Shown: one piece after another, positions 10,826 to 58,320 of the stretch
Numbering within the stretch: the first letter of the stretch is position 1
How the letters are laid out: each line of letters starts with the position of its first letter
Source: Dyadobacter luticola
GTDB taxonomy: Bacteria > Bacteroidota > Bacteroidia > Cytophagales > Spirosomataceae
Direction of reading: 5' to 3'
Assembly: GCF_005860805.1 (NCBI RefSeq)
Contig: NZ_VCEJ01000004.1
Span: forward strand, 1-64,000
Length of the DNA stretch: 64,000 nt
Notes under the pieces: generated by a model
The model's input: only the letters and a program-made list of their open reading frames with translations
What the model was told of the DNA's origin: nothing
Database searches by the model: none
Position numbers and translations under genes: made by a program

Positions 10826-11332
10826 ATGTCAAGCGCAGATAAAAATTTGAGCGTTTTCAAAACCGACGGTCTCCCTGATATCAGTTCAAGAAAATTCGCC
10901 ATCCTGGTGGCCGAGTGGAATTCGGAAGTGACCGAAAAATTGTTCGAAGGAGCTTACAATACCTTGATTCAATACGGTGCCGAAGCAGAGAACATTGAAA
11001 GAGGAAATGTTCCCGGAAGTTTTGAACTGACAACCGGCTCATTGTGGTACGCACTGCGCCGCGACATCGATGCCGTGATTGCACTGGGCGTAGTAATTCA
11101 AGGCGAAACGAAACATAATGATTATATCAATCATGCAGTAGCGCAGGGATTAACCAATGTTAGCCTAAAAACTGAAAAGCCAGTCATCTTCGGCGTACTA
11201 ACCCCAAACACCATGGAGCAAGCACTGGAAAGGGCCGGAGGAATTCACGGCAACAAAGGCGACGAAGCAGCCATGACAGCAATTAAAATGCTGGGGCTTT
11301 ATTCGGAGGTTGCTAGGCATGGGAGTCATTGA
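10826..11332 (+). CDS. ribH: 6,7-dimethyl-8-ribityllumazine synthase
   Basis: Penultimate enzyme of riboflavin synthesis: it joins 5-amino-6-ribitylaminouracil with 3,4-dihydroxy-2-butanone 4-phosphate. At 168 aa it is typical. Motifs seen are NVPGSFELT, LGVVIQGETKHNDYI (with the active-site His), FGVLTPNTMEQALERAGG and HGNKGDEAA. No other rib gene is near, so it is a stand-alone unit here. Its last codons already belong to the GTCATT repeat array that fills the gap to lysC, so the array has been placed directly at, or has grown into, the end of the gene. Confidence 0.96.
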   Translation: MSSADKNLSVFKTDGLPDISSRKFAILVAEWNSEVTEKLFEGAYNTLIQYGAEAENIERGNVPGSFELTTGSLWYALRRDIDAVIALGVVIQGETKHNDYINHAVAQGLTNVSLKTEKPVIFGVLTPNTMEQALERAGGIHGNKGDEAAMTAIKMLGLYSEVARHGSH

Positions 11333-11485
11333 TTGTCATTAGTAGTCATTAATTGTCATTAGGTCATTGGTTGTCATTTGTAGTCAGGTATTGTCAGGTG
11401 TTGTCTTTAATTGTTATTATGTTTTTAGCCCAATAAAAAAACAATAAATGACCACACTTGACTACAAATGACCATAAATGACAAG
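11324..11485. repeat. Snap-back array of about 10-nt GTCATT units, copy A
   Basis: Tandem units of roughly ten bases with core GTCATT (GATTGTCATT, AGTAGTCATT, AATTGTCATT, GGTTGTCATT, then TAGTCAGG and TTGTCAGG variants) run from the ribH stop to about 11420. After a short spacer near 11421-11440 the same units return in inverted orientation (AATGACC, TTGACTAC, AAATGACC, AAATGACA) up to 11485. The arms can fold back on each other. A second copy lies at 57141-57270 and shares the exact string GTCAGGTATTGTCAGG. Confidence 0.85.
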
Positions 11486-11518
11486 TATACATTTTCTAAA
11501 AAACCCATATTTAAAATT

Positions 11519-12877
11519 ATGCAAGTCTGGAAATTTGGCGGTACTTCGGTAGGGAAGCCTGAACGCATGCACTCGATCCGCGAACTTCTTAATGGTGATC
11601 CGAACCGGAAAATTGTCGTTTTGTCGGCGTTATCTGGTTCGACAAATGCATTGATTGCAATTGGCGAGGCAGCCAAAGCATTTGACGATACAAAAGCAGC
11701 GGCGCTGATTGAGGATTTGCGGACACATTATAATCTCTTCATTAAAGAATTGTATACGACCGAAGAGGGATTGTCGCAAGGCCAGCAGATTGTAGATAAT
11801 GAATTTAGCTACATTAAATCGCTGGTGGGCATCAAGCCTTTTACGATCAAACAGGAAAAAGAGCTCGTTGCAGAGGGGGAAATATTAAGTACCAAAATGT
11901 TCCAGGCTTATCTGGAAGAAAAAGGCGAAAGTTCAGTCCTGCTATCTGCACTCGATTTTATGCGCATTGATGCCGACGGCGAACCCGAGCTGGCAACGAT
12001 CGAGGAAAAGCTGGTGACGATCCTGAACCAATATACAGACAAGCAAACTATCATTACCCAGGGTTTTATCTGCCGCAATCCGCGCGAGGAAGTAGATAAC
12101 CTGAAACGCGGCGGCTCAGATTATACGGCTTCGCTGATCGGCGGCGCAATACGTGCGGATGAAATTCAGATCTGGACGGATATCGACGGAATGCATAACA
12201 ATGATCCCCGGATCGTAAAACGTACATTTCCGATTCGCGAGTTAACATTTGAAGAAGCTGCTGAACTGGCTTACTTCGGGGCGAAAATTTTGCATCCAAG
12301 CACAATTACGCCAGCAAAGTTACGCGGCGTGCCGGTTCGTCTGAAAAATACGATGCAGCCCGAAGCGCCCGGAACATTGATCGCCAATCAAACTTCCGAT
12401 CGCGAGATCAAGGCGATTGCTGCGAAGGACAACATTACGGCCATTTACATACACTCAACCCGTATGCTAAATGCTTACGGCTTCCTTCGTAGGGTGTTTG
12501 AAGTGTTTGAAAAATACAAGACGCCGGTGGATATGATCACAACCTCCGAAGTTTCGGTATCTGTGACGATCGACAACTCAGAAAACCTGGATAAGATCAG
12601 TGCTGAACTTCGGGAATTCGCTGATTTGGAGGAACATGACCGCGATCAGAATATCATTTGCATTGTAGGAAATTTCAGTGCAGACAAGGAAGGAATTGCC
12701 CTAAAAGTATTGGATGCATTGAAACATATTCCTATACGAATGATTTCGTATGGCGCTTCGGAGCATAACCTCTCGCTGCTGATCCACTCGAAATATAAGT
12801 CGGAAGCATTGAATGTGCTCAACGAGCGACTTTTCTATTATGAGGATGCGATGAAAGATATTTTCACGGCGCCCTGA
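11519..12877 (+). CDS. lysC: Aspartate kinase (monofunctional)
   Basis: Phosphorylates aspartate, the first step towards lysine, threonine, methionine and diaminopimelate. The kinase domain begins with the signature VWKFGGTSVGKPERM, and the FGAKILHPSTI segment lies late in it. Two ACT domains follow, as expected for feedback control by an end product (TSEVSVSVTIDN and IRMISYGASEHNLSLLI). The length from the ATG at 11519 is 452 aa, typical for a monofunctional enzyme; no homoserine dehydrogenase domain is attached. An in-frame start at 11468 lies inside the repeat array and is unlikely. Confidence 0.95.
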   Translation: MQVWKFGGTSVGKPERMHSIRELLNGDPNRKIVVLSALSGSTNALIAIGEAAKAFDDTKAAALIEDLRTHYNLFIKELYTTEEGLSQGQQIVDNEFSYIKSLVGIKPFTIKQEKELVAEGEILSTKMFQAYLEEKGESSVLLSALDFMRIDADGEPELATIEEKLVTILNQYTDKQTIITQGFICRNPREEVDNLKRGGSDYTASLIGGAIRADEIQIWTDIDGMHNNDPRIVKRTFPIRELTFEEAAELAYFGAKILHPSTITPAKLRGVPVRLKNTMQPEAPGTLIANQTSDREIKAIAAKDNITAIYIHSTRMLNAYGFLRRVFEVFEKYKTPVDMITTSEVSVSVTIDNSENLDKISAELREFADLEEHDRDQNIICIVGNFSADKEGIALKVLDALKHIPIRMISYGASEHNLSLLIHSKYKSEALNVLNERLFYYEDAMKDIFTAP

Positions 12878-56058: not shown

Positions 56059-56145
56059 CTTAGATAGTTTAACAAATTTTAACAAACTATCAGGAATGTT
56101 CGGGCGTTCTTGCAGGTACTTATTTTTAACCATCGATTTAATACC

Positions 56146-57135
56146 ATGAAATTCAAATTGCTACTGGCATTTTCCGTCGCGATTATACTTTCATTCAAAG
56201 CCAGTTTTGGACAAATTACCGAGAATCCCAAGGTAGACGAGCAGTCGCAGCCTTATGTGAAGATCAAAAAAGTGGAGCTGACCGACAATTATACAATTGT
56301 CTATCTTCAATTTACGGAAACAAAATCCAGTCAGCCCCTTCCAAAACAATTCCGTTTTCCACTACCGCAAGGCCCCGATCAGCAATATAAATTTGGCGGC
56401 GGCAACGAAATCTGGCTCGATCCGGAGACAAGATTGTACAAGCCCGGTGAAATAGACAAGAAATTTAAATTCATCAAAGCCGAGAACATTCCGACCACCA
56501 AAAGAAGAGAAGTAACCTCCGGCGAAACCGTCGATTTTGTCGCGTATTTTGAGAGGTTAACGCCTGGTATTGAAGAGTTTGATTTTTACGAAGGTCGCAG
56601 TCAACAAGGCTCGCAATCATGGAATTTTTACGGGATACACGTTAAAAACCCTTTGAAAAAAGAGCAGGCTAAGACGCCAAAGCCGGTTGTAAAAACAACT
56701 GAGCCTGTTCAAAAACCGAAAGAAGAGCCAGTTGCGGTGGATACTTCAAATTCTGTCGCGGAAAAAGAAGAGCTGCGGGTTCCGAAAAAAGTAGGTGAAA
56801 CCATCGCCCTGCCGAACATTTATTTTGAAACTTCCAAGTTCACCTTATTGCCCGAATCCAACGCAGAGCTCGACCGGCTGGTGAAGATCATGGAAGAAAG
56901 TCCAACACTAAAAATCCGCGTGGAAGGACACACCGATAATGTCGGTGATTTTGACAAAAACCTGGAATTGTCCCGAAAAAGAGCCGAAGCCGTCAAATCC
57001 TATCTCACGGAAAAAGGCATCGAAGCCTCCCGCATCGAAGCCAAAGGCTACGGAGCCACCCGCCCCATCAGCAAAGGCAACGCAGAGGAAAGGAAGAAGA
57101 ACCGGAGGGTGGAGTTTGTGGTGACGGGGATGTGA
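56146..57135 (+). CDS. OmpA-family outer-membrane protein
   Basis: 329 aa from the ATG at 56146. Signal peptide ([20 protein letters not shown]), a beta-rich N-terminal domain (about 20-165), a Lys/Pro/Thr-rich linker (about 170-210) and a C-terminal OmpA peptidoglycan-binding domain. That domain shows [40 protein letters not shown] and the late [20 protein letters not shown] with RRVEF. It should tether the outer membrane to the wall. The GTCATT repeat array follows the stop. Confidence 0.93.
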
Positions 57136-57140
57136 TAGGA

Positions 57141-57270
57141 TAGTCATTTGTGGTCATTTGGTCATTTGTTGTCAGGTATTGTCAGGAGTAGTCAGATGTT
57201 GTAAAATTCTAAAAACAACACCTGACTATAAATGACAATCAATGACCACTAATGACTACAAATCACCCCT
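57141..57270. repeat. Snap-back array of about 10-nt GTCATT units, copy B
   Basis: Direct units TAGTCATTTG, TGGTCATTTG, GTCATTTG, TTGTCAGGTA, TTGTCAGGAG and TAGTCAGATG run from 57141 to about 57203. After a spacer they return inverted (CACCTGAC, AAATGAC, CAATGAC, CTAATGAC) to 57270. It fills the gap between the convergent ompA-like and tpiA genes and could act as a two-way terminator or boundary. Confidence 0.85.
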
Positions 57271-57272
57271 TC

Positions 57273-58034
57273 CTACCTCGCCTTAATAATATTCGTAAAC
57301 TCTCTGGATTTAAGAGAAGCTCCGCCTACAAGTCCACCGTCGATGTCTGGTGAGGCGAAAAGTTCTGGCGCGCTGGCGGCTGTGACGCTGCCGCCGTAGA
57401 GGATGGAGATTTCTTCGGCAACATTCGCGCCATATTTGGAAGCAATGTGCTGGCGGAGTGCGGCGTGCATTTCCTGGGCTTGTTCTGCGCTGGCAGTCAG
57501 GCCGGTACCGATCGCCCAGATGGGTTCGTAAGCAATTACTACTTTAAGCAATTCTTCTTCCGTCAGGTGAAAAAGGCTTTCGGTGATCTGGTTTTTTACA
57601 AATCCGATGTAGTCTTCATTCTGGCGCTGATCCAGCGATTCGCCGCAGCAGAAAATCGGAGAAACCCCATTTGCAAGCGCGGTATTCACTTTTTCTGCCA
57701 GCAATGCATTGGTTTCATTGAAATATTGGCGGCGCTCGCTGTGGCCGATCAGCACATATTCCACGCCGATGGATTGCAACATTTGAGCGGAAATTTCGCC
57801 GGTAAATGCACCGGAAACTTTGTCGGAGCAGTTTTGCGCTGCTAGCGAAAAGTTAGGTGCATCCTCAATATATTTTTTGATGGTAGTAAGGTAAATGGCA
57901 GGAGGGCAAAGGATGATTTTGGCGTCATTTTGAACTTCATCTTTTGCCATATTAACCAACTCGGATGTGAGCGCAACTGCTTCATCCATCAGTTTATTCA
58001 TCTTCCAGTTACCGGCAACAATTTTCTTGCGCAT
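57273..58034 (-). CDS. tpiA: Triosephosphate isomerase
   Basis: Interconverts dihydroxyacetone phosphate and glyceraldehyde 3-phosphate. 253 aa from the ATG at 58034 (MRKKIVAGNWKMNK). Active-site residues: Lys in GNWKMNK, His in LIGHSERRQYF, Glu in VIAYEPIWAIGTG, and the phosphate loop ILYGGSV. The frame could reach 58085 but the family start is clear. Monocistronic. Its 3' end lies three bases from the GTCATT array. Confidence 0.97.
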   Translation of the reverse strand: MRKKIVAGNWKMNKLMDEAVALTSELVNMAKDEVQNDAKIILCPPAIYLTTIKKYIEDAPNFSLAAQNCSDKVSGAFTGEISAQMLQSIGVEYVLIGHSERRQYFNETNALLAEKVNTALANGVSPIFCCGESLDQRQNEDYIGFVKNQITESLFHLTEEELLKVVIAYEPIWAIGTGLTASAEQAQEMHAALRQHIASKYGANVAEEISILYGGSVTAASAPELFASPDIDGGLVGGASLKSREFTNIIKAR

Positions 58035-58073
58035 GAGAAATTTTTTATTGTGAAAAAAGGTCTTTTTACGCAA

Positions 58074-58081
58074 CAAAAGTA
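58074..58081 (-). promoter_or_regulatory. Promoter -7 box for tpiA
   Basis: Minus-strand TACTTTTG matches TAnnTTTG. The leader would be about 33 bases. Confidence 0.45.
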
Positions 58082-58320
58082 CCATAATTTCATCATTTGC
58101 ATGATTTTACAACTACTATAAAAATATTTCTGAAAGTTTGTACTTATGAAGATTTTTTTGTGTTTAATTGAGAAGAAAAATATTATTTTTACTTAATTAA
58201 CCAAATGGGTGCAATTTGAATACTAACGTTTACACAAGATATAAAGACAGAGTTAAGCCATTTATAATCAGCGTGTTTTGTATTGTTAACGTAGCAACTT
58301 GAAAAATAGATTTTAAAGAA

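Follow-up and report, generated by a model that had tools for sequence, protein, structure and literature searches.

Dispersed intergenic inverted repeats that are paired with one protein family, RAYT, are known from bacterial genomes as REP and BIME elements, and in cyanobacteria heptamers occur as short tandemly repeated repetitive units (STRR). Direct repeats of a further heptamer, TAACTGA, are found in Beggiatoaceae, Cyanobacteria and Bacteroidetes, for which a mechanism of transfer is, according to the paper, not evident (MacGregor 2015, PMC4679880). A different kind of element is represented by the IVS of 23S rRNA in Coxiella, Leptospira and Brucella, which carry an S23p ORF inside a stem and have been called selfish elements (PMC4990558). 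According to the same paper, tandem heptamers GACAGAT, variable in number between strains, lie just upstream of the S23p ORF in Coxiella, where the IVS is cut out by RNase III, and the production of S23p in vivo has been doubted (PMC4990558). The intergenic short tandem repeats of cyanobacteria and Bacteroidetes on the one hand, and the S23 protein of the rRNA IVS on the other, have each been without explanation so far.

Two snap-back arrays in the window

The window, by which we mean the whole stretch of 64,000 nt of Dyadobacter luticola DNA that was analysed, contains two arrays of inward-running GTCA units, each with its left arm on the + strand and its right arm on the - strand. Copy 1 (11325-11482) is composed of a left arm of eight GTCA units, six GTCATT followed by two GTCAGG (11325..11402, +), a loop with no strand of its own (11403..11446) and a right arm of four GTCA units (11447..11482, -). 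It lies between the ORF named ribH in the first-pass annotation (10826..11332, +) and an ORF at 11519..12877 (+; the longest ORF starts at 11468), which from a reading of its sequence we take to be aspartokinase-like. Copy 2 (57143-57266) has six GTCA units in its left arm (57143..57200, +), an equally strandless loop (57201..57220) and a right arm of four GTCA units and one degenerate GTGATT unit (57221..57266, -); an ompA-like ORF (56110..57135, +) precedes it and the convergent tpiA ORF (57273..58085, -) follows, both again named as in the first-pass annotation. The loops of the two copies hold no S23 gene or relic.

That annotation had reported two snap-back GTCATT arrays, and these are real: three spaced GTCATT units with at most three mismatches are matched 8 times in the window, far above chance (mean 0.10 and maximum 2 in 100 shuffles). 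The exact sequence said to be common to both copies, GTCAGGTATTGTCAGG, is indeed identical in the two, and copy 1 does start within the last codons of ribH, the stop codon of which, TGA within GTCATTGATT, lies inside the array and is supplied by the first GTCA unit of the left arm. A tandem repeat finder gives periods of 10 and 20 for the arrays. The unit of about 10 nt proposed earlier describes most spacings but not all, as one spacing of 8 nt is present in each copy.

A long hairpin formed by the arms, also proposed earlier, is borne out by folding predictions for both copies. Folded as RNA, copy 1 has a predicted energy of -45.5 kcal/mol (z -5.3) and copy 2 of -50.0 kcal/mol (z -8.4), with 0/200 shuffles equally stable in either case, and a hairpin is likewise predicted when copy 1 is folded as DNA (z -4.7). 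An Rfam search of 11200-11620 returned microRNA precursors as best matches, far below their gathering scores, and we take these to be chance hairpin matches.

A dispersed repeat family in Dyadobacter

The pattern GTCAN6GTCAN6GTCA has 65 matches genome-wide, compared with 1 for the reversed pattern, and these group into ~23 sites in the 6.4-Mb genome. Within the genus, 37/48 genomes carry array matches (1 to 836 each), while a single match in total came from 14 genomes that belong to the same order but to other families. The GTCA arrays are a real, dispersed repeat family and not an accident of two copies. The first-pass annotation knew no named family of this design, a statement which stands for the open-licence papers searched, most of them available in part: neither a name for the family nor an earlier description of its unit and arrangement was found there.

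The anatomy of the arrays was examined in 693 units from 92 Dyadobacter sites, a mixed sample with orthologous sites included, in which units were admitted by the presence of GTCA and by a spacing of 9-11. The consensus of the unit is GTCA-(T/G)(T/G)-N-(A/G)-T-N. Sites with arms on both strands (n=62) show a strong inward polarity, with the + arm preceding the - arm in 54, the reverse order in 7 and a mixed order in 1; arms on a single strand only were seen at 30/92 sites. Units two apart are more similar than adjacent units (0.579 vs 0.510), which corresponds to a 20-nt super-period. Arms belonging to one locus resemble each other no more closely than they resemble arms from elsewhere in that genome (523/2000 shuffles as high; 31 sites in five genomes), and an excess of likeness seen when all loci are compared (0.4996 vs 0.459) is lost once the arms are shuffled within each genome. 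Since there is no locus-specific likeness, and no nested order of units either (131/300 shuffles as high), an origin of the arms as recent inverted duplications of each other is not supported.

It had been suggested that the 10-base period places every core on the same face of the helix, as would suit a platform for a DNA-binding protein. Across the 92 sites this idea gains from the regularity of the arrays, as spacings are exactly 10 in 622/693 cases (11 in 54 and 9 in 17, with 9-11 only admitted) and T occupies position 9 in 89% of units. It is at odds with the 8-nt phase break in each window copy and with the units of 7 nt, 8 nt or greater length with hairpin spacers (by eye) that accompany, elsewhere, the GTCA-flanked S23 clade described below. 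In other Bacteroidota the GTCATT core recurs in units of 7, 8 and roughly 14-18 nt, often with small hairpin spacers (by eye), and the 10-base phase is therefore not a fixed property of these arrays. We regard the one-face platform as highly unlikely, and the original claim is not supported; S23 itself could be the binder, a version that overlaps with the S23 partnership discussed below.

In Bacteroidota outside the genus, as well as in some further phyla, AATGAC cores are often separated by mini-hairpins, e.g. GCGAAGC (L111, L083, L127, L106, L074 and the G159/G276 matches).

Genomic context and variation of the arrays

Classified by the surrounding genes, the 23 sites of this genome comprise 17 tandem, 4 convergent and 1 divergent gap and 1 site overlapping a called ORF, much alike the background of 135 tandem, 30 convergent and 20 divergent gaps between neighbouring genes, all gene calls being made by a crude longest-ORF scheme. 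The arrays fill short intergenic gaps of any gene arrangement and extend as far as the adjoining coding sequence, which at ribH they enter. The location after stop codons that was noted at the outset is true for both window copies, but is not a special attraction to 3' ends: with these crude calls, the 23 sites show no 3'-end preference beyond being intergenic.

The two gaps occupied in the window, ribH–thrA and tpiA–ompA, were each read in 30/48 Dyadobacter genomes. At ribH–thrA arrays are present in 11/30 loci and absent in 19, whereas tpiA–ompA holds arrays in 10/30, a different hairpin in 11/30 and neither in 9/30. This alternative hairpin is made of CTGAGCG palindromes and two variants, mostly with GTCA at the start and TGAC at the end. 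The presence of a different hairpin in this gap of other species (10 arrays, 11 palindromes, 9 neither, n=30), together with the stable predicted hairpin of both window copies, would be in keeping with a bidirectional transcription terminator or a 3'-end or boundary hairpin. The absence of an excess of convergent gaps, the position of the best-studied site between divergent genes, the small number of sites (only ~23 in 6.4 Mb) and the 11/48 genus genomes without any match speak against such a role, which we consider quite unlikely.

The alternative hairpin represents a second family, CTGAGCGNAGTCGAAGG..CCTTCGACTNCGCTCAG, in most cases with GTCA and TGAC as its boundaries, and in other species it fills gaps in which GTCA arrays are otherwise seen. 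It is found at tpiA–ompA (L205-L207, L212, L217-L219, L223, L224, L227 and L230) and, as the CTGAGCG palindrome, at lpdA–prfB in 11/18 loci that lack S23 (L404 and others), this genome included. Searching the open-licence literature, partly available, with the letters of the CTGAGCG palindrome surfaced only papers on unrelated subjects. At ribH–thrA, (TCATTCA)n-like heptamer arrays replace the GTCA decamers in L176, L177, L198, L200, L202 and L203.

Two sister genomes (G006 and G020), ~94.5% identical over the compared 200-kb stretches, allow the arrays to be followed over a short distance. They differ by exactly one unit (10 nt) at ribH–thrA, and at another site an arm has 4 units in one sister and 8 in the other. 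Of the four array sites of G006, three coincide with breaks of colinearity and the fourth lies inside a colinear block, and 7/10 of the breaks hold no array. MITEs are marked by a target-site duplication and a related transposase; in the same gaps the two genomes carry different hairpins and no clean empty site, and no insertion with target duplication was seen. A related decamer with the core GTTCG is located beside GTCA units, or replaces them, in G006/G020 near A 103817 (L307) and in L355 and L357; three spaced GTTCG occur in 10/48 Dyadobacter genomes.

Gain and loss of whole units is what would be expected of a neutral or selfish minisatellite that grows by slippage and hairpin-prone replication in tolerant gaps, with S23 genes sitting or inserting there by chance. 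The exact one-unit difference between the sisters and the 4 vs 8 units elsewhere agree with this explanation, as do arms that are not locus-specific and arrays that reach the ends of genes and extend into them. It leaves the inward polarity (54 vs 7) unexplained, and the same is true of two features of the S23-linked loci described in the next section.

The first-pass annotation had called for a search for an associated transposase. Repeats of the REP/BIME kind, mobilised by a Y1 (RAYT) transposase, would also take the form of dispersed intergenic hairpins, and there is one PF01797 (RAYT) gene in this genome. Among the 50 RAYT loci read, none (0/50) has an array of at least three GTCA units in its flanks, and four genomes (G008, G012, G014 and G016) possess RAYT genes with no array match at all. 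At the loci read no RAYT goes with the arrays, membership in the RAYT/REP family was rejected on this count, and movement by such an enzyme is extremely improbable. The RAYT gene of this genome (C3:401245-401586, L282) is flanked by its own CCGTCAGCTTAAGCTGACGG-type palindromes, which are distinct from the GTCATT arrays.

S23 genes between the arms in relatives

In the two sister genomes G006 and G020, one arm pair encloses a small ORF of the S23 / 23S rRNA IVP family, a four-helix-bundle protein family (PF05635/TIGR02436). Two array-linked S23 proteins that were tested scored 96.9 and 98.3 bits with TIGR02436 (cut-off 24), matches to PF05635 were above cut-off, and the sole solved structure matched by S23 was 2gsc (E 0.00065). 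Matches to S23 are widespread, occurring in 41/48 Dyadobacter genomes and in 231/296 sampled Bacteroidota genomes. The genome from which the window is taken has no PF05635 match, nor a relic of S23 at its 23 array sites, and for want of an S23 gene here this companion of the arrays was invisible to the first-pass annotation.

The best-studied array site is the gap between two divergent genes, presumably lpdA and prfB, as named from sequence motifs. This gap was read in 37/48 genomes, the other 11 being judged from coordinates (2 with a broken S23 and 9 without). An S23 gene is present in 19/37 of the genomes read; in 17 of the 19 it has GTCA arrays on both sides, and in the remaining 2/19 (G040 and G014) it is flanked by GTTCG-type decamers (by eye), while paired arrays occur in 0/18 of the gaps without S23. 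This joint presence and absence of the gene and both arms is the first of the two features that the minisatellite explanation does not account for. In predicted folds of 13 S23-enclosing elements, the left arm is paired across the gene over half of its length or more in 9/13. The median dN/dS for S23 at prfB is 0.069 (13/105 pairs with usable dS); judged from these coding sequences, the gene is under purifying selection.

Arrays are also more numerous in genomes with S23 at prfB, with a median of 97 vs 12 in those without (21 vs 27 genomes, p = 5.7e-5, a test that ignores relatedness). Exceptions are G010 (474 matches) and G052 (175), both array-rich without S23 at prfB as judged from coordinates, and this genome, with 65 array matches and no S23. 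An S23 gene is held by 8/114 of the loci collected with the GTCATT pattern and adjoins arrays in each of them; one of the eight, L092, matches weakly (E 1.3e-5) and is located where a contig ends. Two further S23 genes of L042 are not next to arrays.

A tree was built from 90 S23 proteins; the partial genes of L092 and L103 were left out, and the tool warned of few columns and long branches. One clade of 25 in this tree (support 100/99) holds the 22 GTCA-flanked rows (17 from Dyadobacter and 5 from Bacteroidota outside the genus) together with the 2 GTTCG rows; its 25th row is another S23 of L042. The converse search, which used no repeat criterion and compared a profile of this clade with 395 Bacteroidota genomes, gave matches at E <=1e-30 in 31 genomes, and 30 loci were inspected of 36 matches. 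The ten best of these loci (E <=1.6e-55, a cut chosen after looking at the data), none of them from Dyadobacter, have inward GTCA pairs in 10/10 cases, on both sides in 9/10 and as a single pair on one side in L445. Among the next 20, one of which has no left flank, 3 carry such pairs on both sides and 2 on one side; of 60 S23 loci from other branches, 0 carry them on both sides and 1 on one side. With decreasing similarity to the GTCA clade the unit changes, e.g. to GTTCATT. The GTCATT unit matches one S23 clade. A minisatellite that S23 meets by chance leaves this agreement across Bacteroidota unexplained, and we consider that explanation unlikely.

A link between the gene and arrays elsewhere in the genome was looked for in 35 genomes outside Dyadobacter, in which some array matches are the S23 locus itself. 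Array matches were found in 8/10 genomes with a close GTCA-clade S23, in 3/6 with an intermediate S23 (4, 13 and 143 matches) and in 5/19 genomes chosen from the same families without a close S23, one of which, G276, has 70.

S23 genes at large

Complementary flanks are not confined to the GTCA clade. The comparison covered the 30 best-matching S23 loci in Dyadobacter and the 30 best-matching in the phylum, one per genome, many of which are orthologous and hence not independent. Complementarity between the two flanks was above the 95th percentile of controls at 28/30 genus and 19/30 phylum loci, whereas shifted windows at the same loci exceeded it in 8/180 and 5/180 cases, respectively. The best lag within these flanks was 7 in 37/60 (genus) and 40/60 (phylum), 7 being the commonest period. 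When flanks of other loci served as the control, one confounded by orthologues in opposite orientation, 0/30 exceeded the 99th percentile in either set.

S23 genes on cyanobacterial plasmids were examined at 8 loci of 21 records with a match. Flank complementarity exceeds the best of 100 mononucleotide shuffles at 6/8 and does not at 2, and at 5/8 the S23 gene is clearly surrounded by inverted arrays whose short units are for the most part heptamers (e.g. GGGAACA and GGTGTAG). One candidate, L436, was rejected as a snap-back despite passing the shuffle test, as the match between its flanks is better in direct (73) than in inverted orientation (29). In both L434 and L436 the S23 gene is placed between cas6 and cas4 and is flanked by short tandem repeats.

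A model of the element

The fuller form of the element, as seen in relatives, consists of a GTCATT-type left arm, an S23 gene in the loop and a right arm of the same units inverted. The arms may pair, in RNA or in single-stranded DNA, into one long imperfect stem, and this predicted stem would be the functional unit. As all units are alike, the stem could re-form in any register, so that units might be gained or lost while the stem is kept. This structural part of the explanation is very likely correct. S23 would then be the cognate protein partner, with the stem or the units as the target of its recognition. Gene-less copies may be kept or spread in trans, or may have been left behind after loss of the gene. 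Recognition by S23, or its action in trans, is conceivable and we propose it tentatively; if the arrays and the gene were inherited together as a single element, with no recognition involved, this would explain much of the linkage.

On a broader and somewhat speculative reading, S23, a large orphan family, might supply the protein to a system of protein and repeat in which each clade recognises its own unit and maintains it, in snap-back arrays around its own S23 gene and elsewhere in the genome, and the IVS, the cyanobacterial heptamers and GTCATT would form one class. Our search of open-licence papers, some available in part, found no link between S23 genes and dispersed snap-back repeats, which is weak evidence of absence. 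A rule that places S23 genes, as a tendency, between snap-back repeats and ties the GTCATT unit to one S23 branch would join the puzzle of the intergenic short tandem repeats to that of the S23 protein; it would make both testable by naming the protein to be tried with each repeat.

Comparison with known systems

The GTCA arrays resemble TAACTGA repeats in being intergenic short tandem repeats scattered across phyla (PMC4679880). They differ in that the TAACTGA unit is a heptamer and that in the Beggiatoa genome direct orientation prevails among its repeats, most of which precede start codons; the available portion of the paper describes neither snap-back arms nor S23 for them (PMC4679880). 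Like REP/BIME elements, the GTCA arrays are dispersed intergenic inverted repeats with a proposed partner protein family; unlike them, their arms are tandem arrays and not single palindromes, and no arrays lie at 50 RAYT loci. With STRR they have in common that arrays of short units occupy intergenic gaps in many copies, and the units differ in length, 7 nt in STRR vs 10 nt here; no link between STRR and S23 was found in the literature searched. Taking STRR and TAACTGA repeats together, the intergenic, multi-copy tandem array is present in this genome (1/23 sites overlaps a called ORF) and the 7-nt unit is not (622/693 spacings = 10).

Closest are the IVS. Not all of these contain an S23 ORF. 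The GTCA arrays depart from them in being intergenic and not in rRNA, in their GTCATT decamer, in their many copies without a gene and in a unit type that is tied to an S23 clade. The window copies lie in the ribH / aspartokinase-like and ompA-like / tpiA gaps and not in 23S rRNA, and have no S23 ORF between their arms, an arrangement that does exist at lpdA–prfB in 19/37 genomes. As they lack these two defining features, place in rRNA and S23 ORF, we do not file them as IVS. The likeness lies in ends that form a stem, in the window copies a predicted one, and in the S23 ORF within the element in relatives. The window copies are probably S23-less, intergenic relatives of IVS elements, with S23 as the tentatively proposed partner of their stem or units.
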